Positions 40,706-46,653 of a stretch of 59,292 nt of DNA are shown in pieces. How positions within the stretch are numbered: position 1 is the first letter of the stretch; each line of letters starts with the position of its first letter. The position numbers and the translations under genes are program-made. The notes under the pieces were generated by a model. That model had not been told where the DNA came from and made no database searches. It saw only the letters and a program-made list of their open reading frames with translations. Source of the DNA: Candidatus Kapaibacterium sp. (GTDB lineage: Bacteria > Bacteroidota > Ignavibacteria > Kapaibacteriales > UBA2268). Location of the stretch: assembly GCA_026418625.1 (NCBI GenBank), contig JAOABA010000034.1, positions 1-59,292 on the forward strand. Direction: 5' to 3'.

Positions 40706-41671
40706 TTATTCAGTGTCATCATCGGTTGTTAAGCTCTTTTTTGACTTTTTATAATCCCTAACTTCGAAAAACAATTTGCTGAGTTCTGCTGTTAGGAGAA
40801 TTATCAAAGAAAAATAATAAACCCATACAGCTATTGATATTATGATTGCATAGGTGCCGTAAAACCTTCCGTAATTCGAAACTCCTGTTATATACCAATT
40901 GAATATATGTCTTGAAATTTCAACAAGGATAATACACAAAAAAGTGCTTGTCATTATAACCTTAGTAGGTTGCTTCTTATTTGGTATGAATCTAAAAATA
41001 AAGTAAAAAAGGATAAATGAATATATAAGCGATATTAATGTCAGATTGAAGCCGGTGAACAGCCATTTCAAAAAATCAGGCAATATATCAACAAAAAAGG
41101 AAGTTACAACACTAATTAGAGGTATGACAAAGGACAAAATTAATATTAGAATTGCAAGAATCAATGTTATCAATATATCTTTCAATTTGTAAAGTAGAAA
41201 AATATAAGGCGACTCTATTTCGAAAACACTATTTAAAGCTGACCTTAGAGAACCGAATAGCGCTGATGAAATCCAAAATAATCCGAAAATACCTATCCAT
41301 CCTGCTATTGAACTACGACTGAAAATATAGTTTACTTCTTCGATTATCGTGTGAATAAAATTAACTGTGTTTTCGTTTGGTGGCAGAAATTTAACTGCAA
41401 TTTCTTCTAATGTTGAGCTTATTGTGTTGGTGCCAAAAATCAAGTTCACAATATAGACAGCCACCAAAAATAAAGGAATCAAATAAAGAAGAATATTAAA
41501 GGAAATCCCCGCTGAAACTAAAAAAACGTGGTTTTTATCAAGACGAATAAAGAATAATTCTACAAAAGCAACAAACCTTCTGAATTTTTGATTTTTCAAA
41601 CGAAGAAAATCAAGAATTTTAACAATTGATTTGTCTTTAATTTCTAAATCATATTCAGAATATTCTTGCAT
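40706..41671 (-). CDS. YihY/virulence factor BrkB family membrane protein
   Basis: A 321-residue protein with about six membrane helices and the family's features: 'FLVSAGISFNILLYLIPLFLV' in the first helix, 'GIFGLFWISSALFGSLRSALNSVF' in the middle and 'YGTYAIIISIAVWVYYFSLIILLTAEL' near the end. These inner-membrane proteins are of uncertain function; an envelope lipid transport role has been suggested for relatives. Its start overlaps the end of uppP by 17 nt, so the two are translationally coupled. Confidence 0.87.
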   Translation of the reverse strand: MQEYSEYDLEIKDKSIVKILDFLRLKNQKFRRFVAFVELFFIRLDKNHVFLVSAGISFNILLYLIPLFLVAVYIVNLIFGTNTISSTLEEIAVKFLPPNENTVNFIHTIIEEVNYIFSRSSIAGWIGIFGLFWISSALFGSLRSALNSVFEIESPYIFLLYKLKDILITLILAILILILSFVIPLISVVTSFFVDILPDFLKWLFTGFNLTLISLIYSFILFYFIFRFIPNKKQPTKVIMTSTFLCIILVEISRHIFNWYITGVSNYGRFYGTYAIIISIAVWVYYFSLIILLTAELSKLFFEVRDYKKSKKSLTTDDDTE

Positions 41672-42500
41672 ATAGCATTATTAGAATTAATATACCAAGA
41701 CCAATTCTATACCAAATAAAAAGATATGTTGTTCTCTTTTTCAGGTAGTTAAGCAAAAATGCAATCGAAAGATAACCGCTTATACCAGCCGAAACCGTTG
41801 CAATTATTATTGCAATAATTTGATGTGTGTCAATAAAGGTTATACTTTTGTAAAATTCATAAATTCCACTTGCGAATATTGCTGGAATGCTGAGCAGGAA
41901 TGAGAATCTTGCTGCTGTTTCACGCTTTAAGCCCAAAAAAAGACCTGCTGTAATAGTTGTACCAGAGCGTGAAGAACCGGGAATTAAGGCAACAGATTGC
42001 GCTAAACCTATTAAAATAGCATCCTTAAATTTTATATCTTTTAATTCTCTATTGAATTTAGATGTCTTTTCGGCTATTGCTAATATAATCGCAAGAGTGA
42101 TTAAAGCAATAGCTATCACCAGAGGGTCTTTCGTGAAATTTCCTTCAATAATTTTTTTCCCAGCTAAGCCGATAACAACTATCGGTATTGTCCCGATTAT
42201 TATATACCAACCTAATTTTGCTTCAGTGGATTGAACTCCAAAGCTTCTTCTATTTTTTGAAAAATTTTGGACTAAAAAATCATTACTTATACCCAAGATA
42301 TCCTTAAAAAAGTAAACTAAAACAGCCGCAAGAGTGCCAAGTTGAATTACTGCAATAAATGCAGTCCAGTGTTCGGGTTGGTTTGGGTCTATCAAGCCCA
42401 TTAAATTCCCTGCTAAAGTCAAATGAGCTGTGCTACTAATTGGAATAAACTCTGTCAATCCCTGAATAATGCCTAAAATTATTGCTTCTATTATACTCAT
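41655..42500 (-). CDS. uppP: Undecaprenyl-diphosphate phosphatase
   Basis: A 281-residue membrane enzyme that dephosphorylates undecaprenyl diphosphate and so recycles the carrier for cell-wall and glycan synthesis. Both family signatures are seen: 'IQGLTEFIPISSTAHL' near the N-terminus (E-x3-E type and Ser-rich site) and 'PGSSRSGTTITAGLFLGL' (~173). About eight helices. The ATG at 42500 is preferred to a TTG one codon upstream. It is followed, with a 17 nt overlap, by yihY. Confidence 0.94.
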   Translation of the reverse strand: MSIIEAIILGIIQGLTEFIPISSTAHLTLAGNLMGLIDPNQPEHWTAFIAVIQLGTLAAVLVYFFKDILGISNDFLVQNFSKNRRSFGVQSTEAKLGWYIIIGTIPIVVIGLAGKKIIEGNFTKDPLVIAIALITLAIILAIAEKTSKFNRELKDIKFKDAILIGLAQSVALIPGSSRSGTTITAGLFLGLKRETAARFSFLLSIPAIFASGIYEFYKSITFIDTHQIIAIIIATVSAGISGYLSIAFLLNYLKKRTTYLFIWYRIGLGILILIMLYARIF

Positions 42501-42668
42501 CAAAGTAATATATTAATTTCAAAATAATCGTTTGCAAAATAGCTTTTTTGGTATTTATATCAATATTTTTTAATTCTTTTATAAAAATTTAAAATAAAAT
42601 TTAAAGTTTTATGTAACTAAATAATATATTATGCTATATTAATATTTGTGTTTGATAAACGAATTTTT

Positions 42669-42677: not shown

Positions 42678-43181
42678 TTGAAAATTACTTCAATACCAAA
42701 TTCTTTAGCTATTTTTTTTATAATAGCTTTTTTCTATGCTTGTTCGAGTGATAGTTCAACTAATCCAAATGCGGAATTCATTGCAGCCGATGCTGACTTT
42801 TCAAACTGGATGGGATGGACTATGATAGCTGAAAAAAAAGGACCTGACCCTTTTTTAGGTGATGCTCATTCTGGCAATACTCCTAACACAAAAAGGAGGA
42901 TTTATATCAAACAATCAAATGCTCAAAGAGGTGAAAACGGACAATATCCGAAAGGAACAATAGTCGTTAAACAAATTCTTGCAGGTGATGGCTCCAATAT
43001 TATGATTGTTGCTATGGCAAAAAGAGGCGGAACTTTCAACTCAGAAGATAATGGGTGGGAGTGGTTCATCTTGAATTCGAACGGAACAATTCAAAATCGT
43101 GGTGACAGACTGTCAAGCAATATGTGTAATATATGTCATTCAGCTGTAAAATCAAATAAAGATTATATTTATTCAAAATAA
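42678..43181 (+). CDS. Cytochrome P460-like haem lipoprotein
   Basis: 167 residues from the TTG at 42678. The signal 'SLAIFFIIAFFYAC' has a lipobox with Cys ~22. The mature part resembles the cytochrome P460 fold: 'WMGWTMIAEKKGPDPFLGDAH', 'YPKGTIVVKQI', then a C-terminal c-haem site 'MCNICHSAVKSNKDYIYS' (C-x2-C-H). P460 proteins oxidise hydroxylamine or detoxify NO in ammonia oxidisers and others; related cytochrome c'-beta proteins bind NO. The cross-linking Lys of true P460 cannot be assigned without alignment. It starts a cluster of redox genes, 8 nt before the haem-barrel gene. Confidence 0.75.
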   Translation: MKITSIPNSLAIFFIIAFFYACSSDSSTNPNAEFIAADADFSNWMGWTMIAEKKGPDPFLGDAHSGNTPNTKRRIYIKQSNAQRGENGQYPKGTIVVKQILAGDGSNIMIVAMAKRGGTFNSEDNGWEWFILNSNGTIQNRGDRLSSNMCNICHSAVKSNKDYIYSK

Positions 43182-43189
43182 AATTTACT

Positions 43190-44383
43190 ATGAAGTTTTA
43201 TATTTTAATATTTGTTGTTTTTTTTCTGGCTTTACCGAGCCTGTTATCCAAACCAAGTTATTCAATGCTTTCGGGAAATAGATGCCTTAATTGTCATATT
43301 ACTCCTAACGGTGGTGGAATCAGAAATCAATTAGGCGTTTATTCAAAAGAAGATGCTTCCTTGATTAACCCCGAAAGCATTGGAATGAAAAATTTCTTTA
43401 CTTTTTTCAAAAATGTTCAAGAGAAATCAGCCGAAGAAAATTCTCTTTATTTTGGTTTAGATGGCAGGTTCCAAAGCCTGAAATGGGGTGCCGGTAGCGA
43501 CAGATTCAAGATTTTCGACCGAAAAATCTTTATCATGCAGATGACACCATACATTGCTTATTATCCTTTCGAATGGATGTCTGTTAATGCCCAATATAAC
43601 CTTGCCGAACTGACAGGAAACCTCTATCGTGGTCAGAAGTCTTGGTCTGCTGGAATAAATATTCAACCCGACTTCGAATATCCAATGTTAAGATTTGGCT
43701 TCATTCAGCCAAGCATTGGCGGACGTCACGATGACCACACTTTGCTCATTCGACAAACTGCCGGACAATTCGGAGCTTATCCTTATCTTCCACCCGATTA
43801 TACTGAGTGGGGCGCTGAGTTAAGCTATAATTATTACAAATGGATTTCTGCAACTGTTGGTGCCTTCAAATCTGAATCTATGAGTGAGAACTTTGTTAAA
43901 AACAAGGATAACACAAATATTCCACTTGTTGATAAAAACAAGATTTTCGCACTTGCAAGACTGGAATTCTTCCCAAGATTTTTTGATGGAATGCTCAATT
44001 TAAATTTCGGAGGCTCATACTATACAGGCGATAATTTTAATATGATGAACCTATTTTTCAATGCCGGAATAACTGATAAAATTGCATTATTGACTGAATA
44101 TGCTTCAACTAACAAAAAAGATTTGAGAACAACGGATAATTTCCTTATTGAGTTGGATTATCAGATTTTACCTTCAATTATACTATTCGCAAGGGCAGAA
44201 AAAGCATTCACAAAAGAGCTACTAACCGAAACTTATAAGTGGACTACATATCAATATGTTATAGGGGCTAATTTCTATCTTTTACCTTATTTGGATATTA
44301 AACCTGAATATAGAATTTACGATAGGGCTCACGTGGAATCGTCAACAGCTCAATATACTTTGCAAATACATTTTTATTATTGA
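43190..44383 (+). CDS. Single-haem outer-membrane beta-barrel protein (Cyc2-like architecture)
   Basis: 397 residues. A signal peptide (~1-20) is followed at once by one c-type haem site, 'NRCLNCHITPNGGGIRNQLG' (C-x2-C-H, ~30-49). From ~75 to the end the protein reads as a transmembrane barrel: alternating strands rich in Tyr, Phe and Gly, turn-like loops, and a final 'YTLQIHFYY' with C-terminal aromatic residues. A haem domain fused to a porin is the design of Cyc2 iron oxidases, which carry electrons across the outer membrane; the local motif differs from Cyc2, so this is an analogy of layout, not homology shown. It probably forms an operon with the P460-like gene and the small membrane protein. 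Confidence 0.7.
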   Translation: MKFYILIFVVFFLALPSLLSKPSYSMLSGNRCLNCHITPNGGGIRNQLGVYSKEDASLINPESIGMKNFFTFFKNVQEKSAEENSLYFGLDGRFQSLKWGAGSDRFKIFDRKIFIMQMTPYIAYYPFEWMSVNAQYNLAELTGNLYRGQKSWSAGINIQPDFEYPMLRFGFIQPSIGGRHDDHTLLIRQTAGQFGAYPYLPPDYTEWGAELSYNYYKWISATVGAFKSESMSENFVKNKDNTNIPLVDKNKIFALARLEFFPRFFDGMLNLNFGGSYYTGDNFNMMNLFFNAGITDKIALLTEYASTNKKDLRTTDNFLIELDYQILPSIILFARAEKAFTKELLTETYKWTTYQYVIGANFYLLPYLDIKPEYRIYDRAHVESSTAQYTLQIHFYY

Positions 44384-44402
44384 TAAATATCTGAGGTCTT
44401 TT

Positions 44403-44744
44403 ATGTTATGGAAATATTTGAGTATAATATCTTTGATTTTAGTTTTACCGGTTATTGTTCTTTGGCTTTCAGACAGCAATGATTACGGGCGAATGCTAAT
44501 TTATTCTATGGAGCAGAAAGAAATAAAAACCGAAGAGTTCGACCCGATTTTTGGTCAAAAGTTCGAAAAAACTGAAATTCAAAAAGGTTTCTGGCTTGGA
44601 TTATTACCACCCACAGACCAAATTTCCTTGAAAATGTTTCTTGGTGTAATTCCATTATCTTCAACATTTATAGCGATAAGTGTTTTTGGGCTTATTATGC
44701 TAAGAATTCATAAAAAGAGGAAACAACAGAATCCAAATATTTAA
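44403..44744 (+). CDS. Small membrane protein of unknown function in the redox cluster
   Basis: 113 residues with two predicted helices: ~5-23 and ~79-101. The ~55-residue loop between them ('DYGRMLIYSMEQKEIKTEEF', 'GFWLGLLPPTDQISLK') lies probably in the periplasm, and the C-terminus is basic. No family recognised, no haem or metal motif. It begins 19 nt after the haem-barrel gene, so it is probably co-transcribed and may assist or anchor the electron-transfer proteins. Confidence 0.65.
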   Translation: MLWKYLSIISLILVLPVIVLWLSDSNDYGRMLIYSMEQKEIKTEEFDPIFGQKFEKTEIQKGFWLGLLPPTDQISLKMFLGVIPLSSTFIAISVFGLIMLRIHKKRKQQNPNI

Positions 44745-44823
44745 TCATTATTAACTTATAAATTAATAGAAGCAAAACTATTTCGTTATATAGTAATATT
44801 TTTTAACAATATAAGAGGTTTAT

Positions 44824-45495
44824 ATGTATAAGTTACTTAAATTAATAGTTTTAGGGGTTTTGTTTATAACAACCCTCAACTCAGCATTTTCAACTGATTT
44901 TGGTCTGAATCTTTCAGGCGAAAGAAAATTCAAATTAAATCATAATGTTGGTCCGAATGAACTTAGATTCAATTCATCTGCACCATTAGAAGACATTGTT
45001 GGCTACGTTGATAAAGATGCTATGTCCAGTTCAGTTACTCTTGATCCAGCCAATATCGAAAAAGCTACAGGAACTGTTGTCTTCAAAGTAAATGGTATGG
45101 AAACTGGTATTAAAACAAGAGACGAGCACCTTCACGGACCCAATTGGCTCGATGCCGCTCAATTTCCAGAAATTAAATTTGAATTAAGAAACATTAAAGA
45201 CGTTAAAATTGTTCAAAAAGATCCGCCTCTCGGAAGAGCTTCAGCTGAAGCAACTGCAGTTGGCGTTTTCACTATGCGAGGCATTTCGAAAAATATTACA
45301 TCGAAAGTAAAAATCACTTTTGTCAAAGAATCTGATTTTACAAAGAAAAGAGCCAACGGTGATTTATTATTTGTAGAAGGAACTTTTTCAATCAAACTGG
45401 CTGATTTTAATGTTCAAGGAACTAAAGGTGTCATTGGCAGCAAAGTTGGCAAAGAAATAAGCATTACATACAAATTGTTCTACAACGCAGGTTAA
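44824..45495 (+). CDS. YceI family periplasmic protein
   Basis: A 223-residue exported protein (signal ~1-24). The YceI fold is recognised from 'LNLSGERKFKLNHNVG', 'TGTVVFKVNGMETGIKTRDEHLHGPNWLDAAQFPEIKFEL' (the DEHL..WLDA..FP block), 'GVFTMRGISKNITSKVKITF' and 'FSIKLADFNVQGTKGVIGSKVGKEI'. YceI proteins are lipocalin-like and bind polyisoprenoids such as quinones. In this cluster it could handle a quinone or lipid near the redox proteins. An AAGAGG ribosome site precedes the ATG. Confidence 0.88.
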   Translation: MYKLLKLIVLGVLFITTLNSAFSTDFGLNLSGERKFKLNHNVGPNELRFNSSAPLEDIVGYVDKDAMSSSVTLDPANIEKATGTVVFKVNGMETGIKTRDEHLHGPNWLDAAQFPEIKFELRNIKDVKIVQKDPPLGRASAEATAVGVFTMRGISKNITSKVKITFVKESDFTKKRANGDLLFVEGTFSIKLADFNVQGTKGVIGSKVGKEISITYKLFYNAG

Positions 45496-45522
45496 TTTTT
45501 AGGAACTGTCTTTAAGAAAAGC

Positions 45523-45597
45523 CCTTATGAACGTAAGTGAAGAACCTAAATAATAGATTTAATCACAATTTTTAAGGTTCTTCACTGCGTTCAAGGT
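45523..45597. repeat. Palindromic dispersed repeat copy (degenerate)
   Basis: Arms CTTATGAACGTAAGTGAAGA (from 45524, ending AACCT) and AAGGTTCTTCACTGCGTTCA (from 45574, ending AGG) are complementary around an ~25 nt AT-rich centre. Upstream, AGGAACTGTCTTTAAG (45501-45516) resembles the outer end of the longer copies. It lies between the YceI and Rieske genes and could end or weaken transcription. Confidence 0.65.
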
Positions 45598-45649
45598 TTT
45601 AAATTAAATTTAAGAAAGATAATACCTTGTTTATTTTGAAAAGGAAATA

Positions 45650-46120
45650 ATGGAAAATTCAAATAAAACAAATAACAGAAGAAATTTTATAAAAACAGTA
45701 AGTTCGGCACTTGGTGTTGGTCTAGTTTTCATTCCGCTTTCTCAGTTCCTATCATCCTGTGAGCATCAGGAACCAACTGGCGTCAAGAGTAAAGAACTGA
45801 TTATAAATCTAAATCAATATCCGTCTTTGAACGAAGTTGGAAAGTTCCAAAAAATAACCGAAAACAATCTTCCAATTGTAATTATCAGAAAAAGTCAGAC
45901 AGAATTTCTTGTTTTAAGTTTGATTTGCACTCATCAGGGCTGCGAAGTAGATGTGCCCGATAGTAATAACGTTCTCAACTGCTATTGCCATAATTCAAAA
46001 TTTTCGGCTAATGATGGCTCTGTGATGAAAGGTCCGGATGATGGCTCAAATATTGCTTCGTTAAAAAAGTTTCAGAACACTTTCGATAGTAACACAAATC
46101 AACTTAAAATAATTTTTTAA
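45650..46120 (+). CDS. Rieske [2Fe-2S] protein
   Basis: 156 residues. The N-terminus 'NNRRNFIKTVSSALGVGLVFIP' has a twin-arginine export motif, and 'LSSC' near residue 36 could be a lipobox. The Rieske cluster-binding motifs are 'CTHQGC' (~102) and 'CYCHNSKFS' (~118): C-x-H and C-x2-H with the two extra Cys that form the disulfide. It binds a 2Fe-2S cluster and transfers electrons in the periplasm. No cytochrome b gene is next to it, so it is not a classical bc1 subunit. It lies behind YceI and a palindromic repeat. Confidence 0.88.
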   Translation: MENSNKTNNRRNFIKTVSSALGVGLVFIPLSQFLSSCEHQEPTGVKSKELIINLNQYPSLNEVGKFQKITENNLPIVIIRKSQTEFLVLSLICTHQGCEVDVPDSNNVLNCYCHNSKFSANDGSVMKGPDDGSNIASLKKFQNTFDSNTNQLKIIF

Positions 46121-46323: not shown

Positions 46324-46563
46324 ATGTTCTGGACACCTGAATTAGCAAAGTATTTAGAAGATGCCCCTTGGCCCGCAACCAAAGAGGAACTTATTGATTA
46401 TGCAAATCGTTCCGGTTGCCCCCAGCAAGTTATTGATAATCTTTATGAATTGGATGACACTGATGAATTAATCGAAGGAATCGAGGACCTTTGGCCCGAG
46501 TATGAGGATATTTCTTCGGAAGATTATTTTTATAATGACGACGAAGAAGAGCAATACTTCTAA
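46324..46563 (+). CDS. DUF2795 family small acidic protein
   Basis: 79 residues. 'WTPELAKYLEDAPWPATKEELIDYANRSGCPQQVIDNLYEL' (~3-43) matches the DUF2795 domain, a small helical unit. The tail is acidic with aromatic residues ('EDYFYNDDEEEQYF'). Function unknown; members are widespread and often short. A GAGG ribosome site precedes the ATG. It is followed by a hairpin terminator. Confidence 0.8.
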   Translation: MFWTPELAKYLEDAPWPATKEELIDYANRSGCPQQVIDNLYELDDTDELIEGIEDLWPEYEDISSEDYFYNDDEEEQYF

Positions 46564-46600
46564 AAGCTTCATCATTACTGATTTTTTAATATTTAAAAGA

Positions 46601-46627
46601 AAAACAAGGGCAAAAAACCCTTGTTTT
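46601..46627. terminator. Bidirectional terminator between DUF2795 and KamA-like genes
   Basis: A 10 bp stem (AAAACAAGGG at 46601-46610 with CCCTTGTTTT at 46618-46627) and a 7 nt loop. T-runs occur on both strands, so it serves the two converging genes. Confidence 0.8.
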
Positions 46628-46653
46628 TCATTTTTATGAAATACTTTTTATAA

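Follow-up and report, generated by a model that had tools for sequence, protein, structure and literature searches.

The window analysed here is a stretch of 59,292 nucleotides from Candidatus Kapaibacterium sp. (assembly GCA_026418625.1, contig JAOABA010000034.1), which is contig C7 of a 3.3-Mb genome that comprises 58 contigs and is 96% complete. Between positions 42678 and 46120 of its plus strand five open reading frames (ORFs) fill the whole span and code for a cytochrome P460-type protein, a single-haem outer-membrane barrel, a two-helix membrane protein, a YceI-family protein and a Rieske protein (Table 1). The ORFs and their family matches confirm these five genes on one strand as the initial annotation had placed them, and its first interpretation as a redox cluster turned out to be partly right. 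The actual discovery, however, is not the set of five but a recurring unit of four genes, which does not include the P460 gene, and the Cyc2-related family to which its barrel belongs. In gene order the intergenic gaps measure 8, 19, 79 and 154 bp, and the start of the P460 gene, a TTG after GGAGG, lies 174 bp away from that of a divergent gene (41655–42503).

Table 1. Coordinates of the genes, sites and other features in the window.
Feature	Position	Strand	Basis
Cytochrome P460-type c-haem protein, probable lipoprotein	42678–43181	+	PF16694, E 7e-10
P460 sites	Lys98 42969–42971; Val111 43008–43010; CXXCH 43125–43139	+	
Single-haem outer-membrane beta-barrel, distant Cyc2 relative	43190–44383	+	AlphaFold2 model, OprO/OprP, Cyc2 profile
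Barrel sites	CXXCH 43283–43297; DDHT 43730–43741; His183 43736–43738	+	
Two-helix protein, probably inner-membrane	44403–44744	+	39-ORF family alignment
Exported YceI-family protein, isoprenoid/quinone-binding type	44824–45495	+	PF04264, E 8e-24
Hairpin between YceI and Rieske genes	45536–45586 (arms 45536–45554 and 45568–45586)		
Tat-exported lipoprotein Rieske [2Fe-2S] protein	45650–46120	+	PF00355, E 5e-11
DUF2795 gene, 79 aa, 3' flank	46324–46563	+	Pfam match (PF11387)

A recurring gene neighbourhood

Of 60 relatives 45 gave a barrel match, with the own genome counted, and a search of 294 genomes drawn from the class with the window barrel as query gave matches at E 0.001 in 199, a number that includes weak N-terminal-only matches which may belong to other families. 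Among named genome contigs we found 47 barrel loci, mostly in metagenome-assembled genomes (MAGs) labelled Kapabacteria, Ignavibacteria, Bacteroidetes or Chlorobiota, together with single loci labelled Latescibacteria, Myxococcales, Aquificales and Melioribacter. Barrels with fewer than 360 residues, without CXXCH or with identical last 150 residues were excluded, which left 80 distinct sequences; 71 of them have at least 2.5 kb of downstream sequence and were regarded as informative. The surrounding ORFs were called by a plain longest-ORF picker and labelled with profiles built from the window genes, and as this caller hides overlapping genes and misplaces starts, the synteny counts are rough and probably low. 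Rieske counts were filtered by the motif C-x-H...C-x-x-H because the profile also caught large proteins and small monohaem lipoproteins that are not Rieske proteins.

Three genomic settings could be distinguished. In type A (34 of the 71 informative barrels) a two-helix gene lies within three or a YceI gene within four genes downstream of the barrel; these 34 loci contain the two-helix gene in 25, YceI in 27 and a motif-checked Rieske gene in 24 cases, the shares of the first two being partly circular as they define the type, and 16 of them show the exact order two-helix, YceI, Rieske after the barrel. In type B a protein with five or six haems is encoded directly upstream of the barrel and a Rieske or small monohaem-like protein downstream, and in type C a small cytochrome c lies upstream and there is no Rieske gene. 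A YceI gene follows within four genes in 27 of the 71 informative barrels, where about 0.2 would be expected by chance if a genome has two YceI genes per approximately 3,000 genes (our estimate; the own genome has two YceI matches only), and chance clustering of barrel, two-helix, YceI and Rieske genes was therefore rejected. Conservation of gene order across relatives thus holds for these four genes, whereas among the loci mapped the P460 gene stands beside the barrel only in the window. In a maximum-likelihood tree of all 80 barrels (37 type A, 19 type B, 6 type C and 18 other) the window barrel forms a group with two further type A barrels from its family (Shimodaira-Hasegawa-like approximate likelihood ratio test support of 97). 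At L087, the only type B locus that was annotated, a pentahaem lipoprotein with an MtrC/MtrF domain is encoded beside barrel and Rieske protein, along with a small monohaem protein, a 13-haem c7-type protein and a b561-NapC fusion, and these genes look like parts of an extracellular electron transfer chain.

The window Rieske protein combines an RRNF signal of the twin-arginine translocation (Tat) type with a lipobox cysteine and the cluster motif CTHQGC...CYCHNS. Of 46 distinct Rieske proteins encoded downstream of barrels, 44 carry the RR signal and 43 match a loosely defined lipobox. The two disulphide cysteines occur together in 28 and are jointly missing from the other 18, with no protein keeping just one, as expected of a bonded pair. 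The window protein shares the CTHxGC...CxCH motif, the disulphide pair and the Tat-type signal with the Rieske proteins of bc1 and b6f complexes but carries a lipobox instead of a membrane anchor. Furthermore, cytochrome b (PF00033) gave no match in the 96%-complete genome (the control matched in 8 of 14), so that we rejected a bc1 subunit and the protein is probably not part of such a complex. The term lone Rieske, used in the initial annotation, has to be qualified, as the genome has five Rieske matches in total and three of these share a cluster with a haem barrel (contigs C7, C33 and C15).

The two-helix protein (113 aa) has no Pfam match up to E 1 and two NCBIfam matches far below cut-off. 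An alignment of 39 family ORFs from the fetched loci, which were not de-duplicated, shows a conserved loop around DPLFGT and GLLP and no conserved His or Cys, and the protein is probably located in the inner membrane. In the YceI protein, which has a signal peptide as judged by eye, the Pfam match covers profile positions 28–147 of 150 and leaves the N-terminal part of the profile unmatched; its nearest PDB chains are E. coli YceI and a polyisoprenoid-binding protein (E 2e-4).

Several variants of the neighbourhood were seen. Two tandem pentahaem-barrel-Rieske sets are present at L061:7614-12556, and two consecutive YceI-Rieske pairs lie behind a single barrel at L070/L101, apparently one contig. 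At L044:10756-13257, L085:11431-14151, L093 and L081 the gene behind the type A Rieske gene encodes a protein of 830–930 residues whose N-terminus is rich in Cys and CXXCH-like, and the one that was scanned, from L044, carries Ig-like domains.

The barrel and its relation to Cyc2

To our knowledge single-haem porins are known mainly as Cyc2 (with Cyt572), which is used as a marker of iron oxidation. The window barrel consists of 397 aa with one CXXCH (residues 32–36) just behind the signal peptide and a C-terminal Tyr, and it matched no Pfam or NCBIfam family up to E 1. An AlphaFold2 model built with 40 sequences reached a predicted local distance difference test (pLDDT) value of 82 and shows 16 strands by our count. 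Among the top Foldseek chains the structural aligner placed OprO and OprP best (Z 25, root mean square deviation 2.6–2.8 over 285–289 residues), and PorB and other porins likewise match the model. OprO and OprP are also named as structural relatives of Cyc2 in the cited part of PMC8406198.

For the comparison with Cyc2 we used profiles of 40 barrels (A4), of 25 barrels (A5) and of 16 Cyc2-like sequences (A6). Profile A5 matched 96 of 395 genomes of the phylum, some of the matches being weak, mostly confined to the N-terminus and due to other proteins; 20 of the weakly matching stretches were fetched, 17 of which gave a suitable CXXCH ORF of 393–473 residues, and 16 of the 17 entered A6. The Cyc2 motif P.FAR[QK][TY] occurs in 11 and the PXL motif in 12 of the 17 ORFs, and the six without the former have sequences such as PAYARQT, PAFSRQT or SQWARKT instead. 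In profile-profile comparison A5 matched the Cyc2-like profile over the full length with E 5e-15 (probability 98%) in the mature haem region alone with E 1.5e-8 (probability 96%) and in the barrel alone with E 1.4e-5 (probability 80%), and A4 matched it with E 5e-9. Twenty column-shuffled controls reached at most 15.0 for the barrel and 11.5 for the haem region, compared to real scores of 46.7 and 36.8, and reversed controls reached 20.3 over the full length, compared to 118, and 12.3 for the barrel.

According to the motif definitions in the cited part of PMC8406198, Cyc2 carries AXPXFAR[Q/K][T/Y] upstream and PXL downstream of CXXCH. Neither is present in the window barrel, which reads KPSYSMLS at the first position (the A4 consensus of 40 barrels being ALPQFSLLT) and CHITPNGGGIRN at the second, and the assignment of the barrel as Cyc2 itself was rejected for this reason. 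Because the barrels are remote homologues of Cyc2 by profile, yet the window protein lacks its motifs, we call them a sister family. Both have a signal peptide, one CXXCH, a 16-stranded OprO/OprP-like barrel (in the window protein as predicted by the model) and an aromatic last residue, but the window barrel differs by a conserved DDHT loop motif and by having Rieske and YceI genes as neighbours. Proteins with the strict Cyc2 signature were found at L232, L233 and L234 in three genomes of the same class (G137, G226 and G092), which also hold a sister-family barrel on other contigs, so that both kinds coexist. Cyc2 homologues have been reported in Ignavibacteriaceae MAGs (PMC6344600, cited part).

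The DDHT motif contains a candidate for the second haem ligand. The usual sixth ligands of c-type haems are His and Met, and at residue 183 the 80 barrels have either His (74) or Met (6), the latter being the six type C barrels; on these grounds we propose this residue as a haem ligand. In the barrel model it is located between strands 5 and 6, which we take to be the place of the constriction loop in 16-stranded porins. DDHT is kept in all 18 full-length far homologues that were read, 14 of which, measured in A5, are 21–33% identical to the window barrel; of the remaining far stretches L188 and L193 had no called barrel and L186 a fragment of 224 residues without the loop. In the 16 aligned Cyc2-like sequences no His or Met besides CXXCH and the start Met is conserved.

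A proposed electron conduit and its rivals

With somewhat better than even confidence we regard the recurring unit as an electron conduit of the outer membrane that is built on one haem and has a Rieske protein as partner. This reading draws on gene content and conserved gene order, the predicted fold, the Cyc2 homology and the conserved residues, all computed here, and from these we infer haem ligation, partner contacts, electron flow with its direction, and substrate. One c-type haem behind the signal peptide would plug an OprP-like barrel of 16 strands, with the His of CXXCH and a putative second residue from the DDHT loop (Met in one clade) as ligands. The barrel could then swap single electrons between the lipid-anchored Rieske protein and a small redox partner that is extracellular or enters the pore, be it Fe(II), a chelate or a shuttle, while YceI as a quinone or isoprenoid carrier and the two-helix protein would link the conduit to the quinone pool. 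By analogy, the type A unit might be a minimal version of a chain like that at L087. In this genome the P460-type lipoprotein takes the slot that a small monohaem protein has at some other loci. The electron path from quinone pool through periplasm to outer membrane that had been suggested at first is thus supported in its outer-membrane part by synteny, Cyc2 homology and the multihaem clade, whereas the quinone link is suggested by the family to which YceI belongs. The direction cues differ, as Cyc2 points inwards (iron oxidation, with 208 mV given in the cited part of PMC8406198) and the MtrC-like neighbour at L087 outwards.

The multihaem conduits MtrCAB, MtoAB and Pcc likewise unite an outer-membrane barrel with haem, and L087 encodes both a lipoprotein with an MtrC/MtrF domain and a protein of the b561/NapC kind. 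The window differs from them in having one haem fused to a small barrel, 16-stranded in the model, instead of a multihaem wire: none of its five genes encodes a multihaem cytochrome, and the Mtr barrel has 26 strands (PMC8406198, cited part). Among the papers searched we found none describing the gene set, as judged by title or start of the abstract, and none joining YceI, Rieske, outer membrane and cytochrome. A sister family with its own loop signature and tied to Rieske proteins in many loci would widen the known outer-membrane electron routes and would provide a testable electron-exchange system for uncultured lineages of the Kapabacteria type. It also cautions that Cyc2-like matches require a check of the motifs, and whether residue 183 is a haem ligand offers a clear test.

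Several observations weigh against the conduit. The barrel-only match of A5 to Cyc2 reaches a probability of just 80%, the haem region of the model has pLDDT values below 50 (residues 14–24 and 27–54), and Foldseek itself ranks OmpT first and OprP eighth with TM-scores (template modelling scores) of about 0.5. A nearly invariant His394 near the C-terminus is an alternative ligand candidate. No YceI or two-helix gene is in reach of 37 of the 71 informative barrels, and type A is scattered on the barrel tree with 12 changes (mean after shuffling 26.7) compared to 2 for type B and 1 for type C, so that it may be older or repeatedly lost. Some Rieske slots are filled by small monohaem-like proteins. 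Moreover, YceI may act in lipid repair rather than respiration, and the haem might have a structural role in what is otherwise a common porin.

The type B Rieske slot deserves separate mention. At L056, L058, L059 and L094 the Rieske protein gives way to a small lipoprotein that carries a single CXXCH or a motif akin to it, as if the barrel partner could be swapped. Eight of 14 type B Rieske lipoproteins begin with C-[E/D]-[K/Q/R]-D-E. Acidic residues at both positions 4 and 5, with the lipobox Cys counted as 1, occur in 8 of these 14, in 2 of 25 type A Rieske lipoproteins and in 1 of 60 other predicted lipoproteins from the same loci; the Fisher p of 2e-6 is only a hint, as another pattern served to select the 60 controls and the value is not corrected for the kinship among the type B sequences. 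We know of no Rieske protein on the outside of a cell. As these N-termini are close to the surface-export signal of Bacteroidota, for which C-X-K-(D/E)2-X is given as the optimum in Capnocytophaga (PMC5080379, cited part), the type B Rieske proteins could be exposed there; the window protein itself begins with C-E-H-Q-E and fits the signal poorly. A new class of conduit across the outer membrane, in which a porin with a single haem, ligated by a His or Met of the constriction loop, docks to a lipid-anchored Rieske protein, the latter taking the place of the multihaem wire as well as of the bc1 setting, with a possibly surface-exposed Rieske protein in type B, is in our opinion a rather unlikely extension.

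The main rival of the conduit, itself unlikely, is a defence against envelope stress, in which YceI as a quinol antioxidant would quench lipid radicals of the outer membrane and be re-reduced via the Rieske and haem proteins. Such a protection of membranes from peroxidation has been proposed for the YceI lipocalin BcnA and its cytochrome b561 partner LcoA in Burkholderia (PMC9113575, cited part), and the window resembles this system in encoding an exported YceI with redox genes. The frequency of YceI behind the barrel would fit, as would two matches for subunit I of haem-copper oxidases (COX1) in the genome, from which O2 is probably met. However, the window adds a haem barrel and a Rieske protein, a scan of the products of the five genes and of DUF2795 gave no cytochrome b561, barrels also stand among multihaem genes at loci that have no YceI, and a haem porin is not obviously required for such a defence.

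That the barrel is a porin or transporter for a solute (phosphate as in OprP, or another anion), its haem serving a structural purpose and its redox neighbours being unrelated, is quite improbable. The matches of the model to OprO/OprP, PorB and other porins would agree with it, but cytochromes or Rieske proteins repeatedly accompany the barrel across the three settings, and both CXXCH and DDHT persist in the far homologues.

We give equally little credit to two separate transcription units, the first reaching from the P460 to the YceI gene and the second consisting of the Rieske gene alone, with a looser functional coupling. The 154-bp gap before the Rieske gene (45496–45649) contains a strong hairpin (RNA fold z -4.6), possibly an attenuator, terminator or processing site, and transcription of the window unit may be attenuated here or split in two. 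In contrast, YceI and Rieske genes are separated by short gaps or overlap at several other loci, among them L044, L060, L072, L081, L085, L093 and L097. Apart from the palindrome itself, a search of the genome at E 0.01 detected no further copy of the hairpin, and a dispersed repeat was rejected accordingly. The DUF2795 gene further downstream, which is followed by a terminator-like hairpin (46599–46629), has no homologue among the mapped barrel loci and is probably not part of the unit.

The P460-type lipoprotein

The P460 protein belongs to PF16694 and carries one CXXCH at its C-terminal end. As a genome search with PF16694 missed even this protein (39.8 bits), relatives were sought with the window protein as query and found in 14 of 395 genomes of the phylum and in 12 of the 60 relatives, the own genome included. 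A profile (A3) of eight sequences, the window P460 and 7 of 14 matches found outside the window, matches cytochromes P460 in the PDB, best 6amg with E 7e-8. The lipobox Cys22 and Lys98 are invariant in all eight, and Lys98 aligns with the cross-linking Lys106 of NsP460, a Lys thus kept as in P460; PF16694 membership and the C-terminal CXXCH are shared with the P460/c'-beta proteins. The window protein differs from them in being a lipoprotein and in lacking the distal carboxylate (Glu96/Asp102), as this position is Val111 and none of the eight aligned sequences has Asp or Glu there. Native P460s that oxidise hydroxylamine have the distal carboxylate, and NsP460 with Ala at this position does not oxidise it (PMC11928373, cited part). 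As the cross-link Lys is kept but the carboxylate is replaced by Val, oxidation of hydroxylamine by the window P460 is unlikely, while binding of nitric oxide (NO) appears possible.

Among the loci mapped the P460 gene adjoins the barrel only in the window. In none of the 11 other P460-bearing relatives does it lie on a barrel contig, which is not proof as the contigs are broken, and in G004 and G054, which belong to these 11, the barrel was not matched at all. At some other loci small monohaem proteins stand in or near the P460 slot, either adjacent to the barrel (L125, L129 and L130) or one gene further upstream (L120, L062 and L067). Thus, P460 looks like a local addition to the recurring unit. 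A detoxification of hydroxylamine or NO centred on P460, with the other proteins removing electrons, is very improbable despite the position of the gene directly upstream of the barrel and the Lys at the cross-link site, as its relatives stand apart from the barrel and the distal carboxylate of active P460s is missing; it was rejected as the recurring function, and the NO/hydroxylamine defence considered in the initial annotation is weakened accordingly. At L162, L163 and L165, which have P460 and no barrel, a gene resembling an extracytoplasmic function (ECF) sigma factor, judged by eye, lies two genes from P460 and suggests a regulation of the latter. L165 also encodes a tandem double P460 with two CXXCH in one polypeptide (L165:406-1368).

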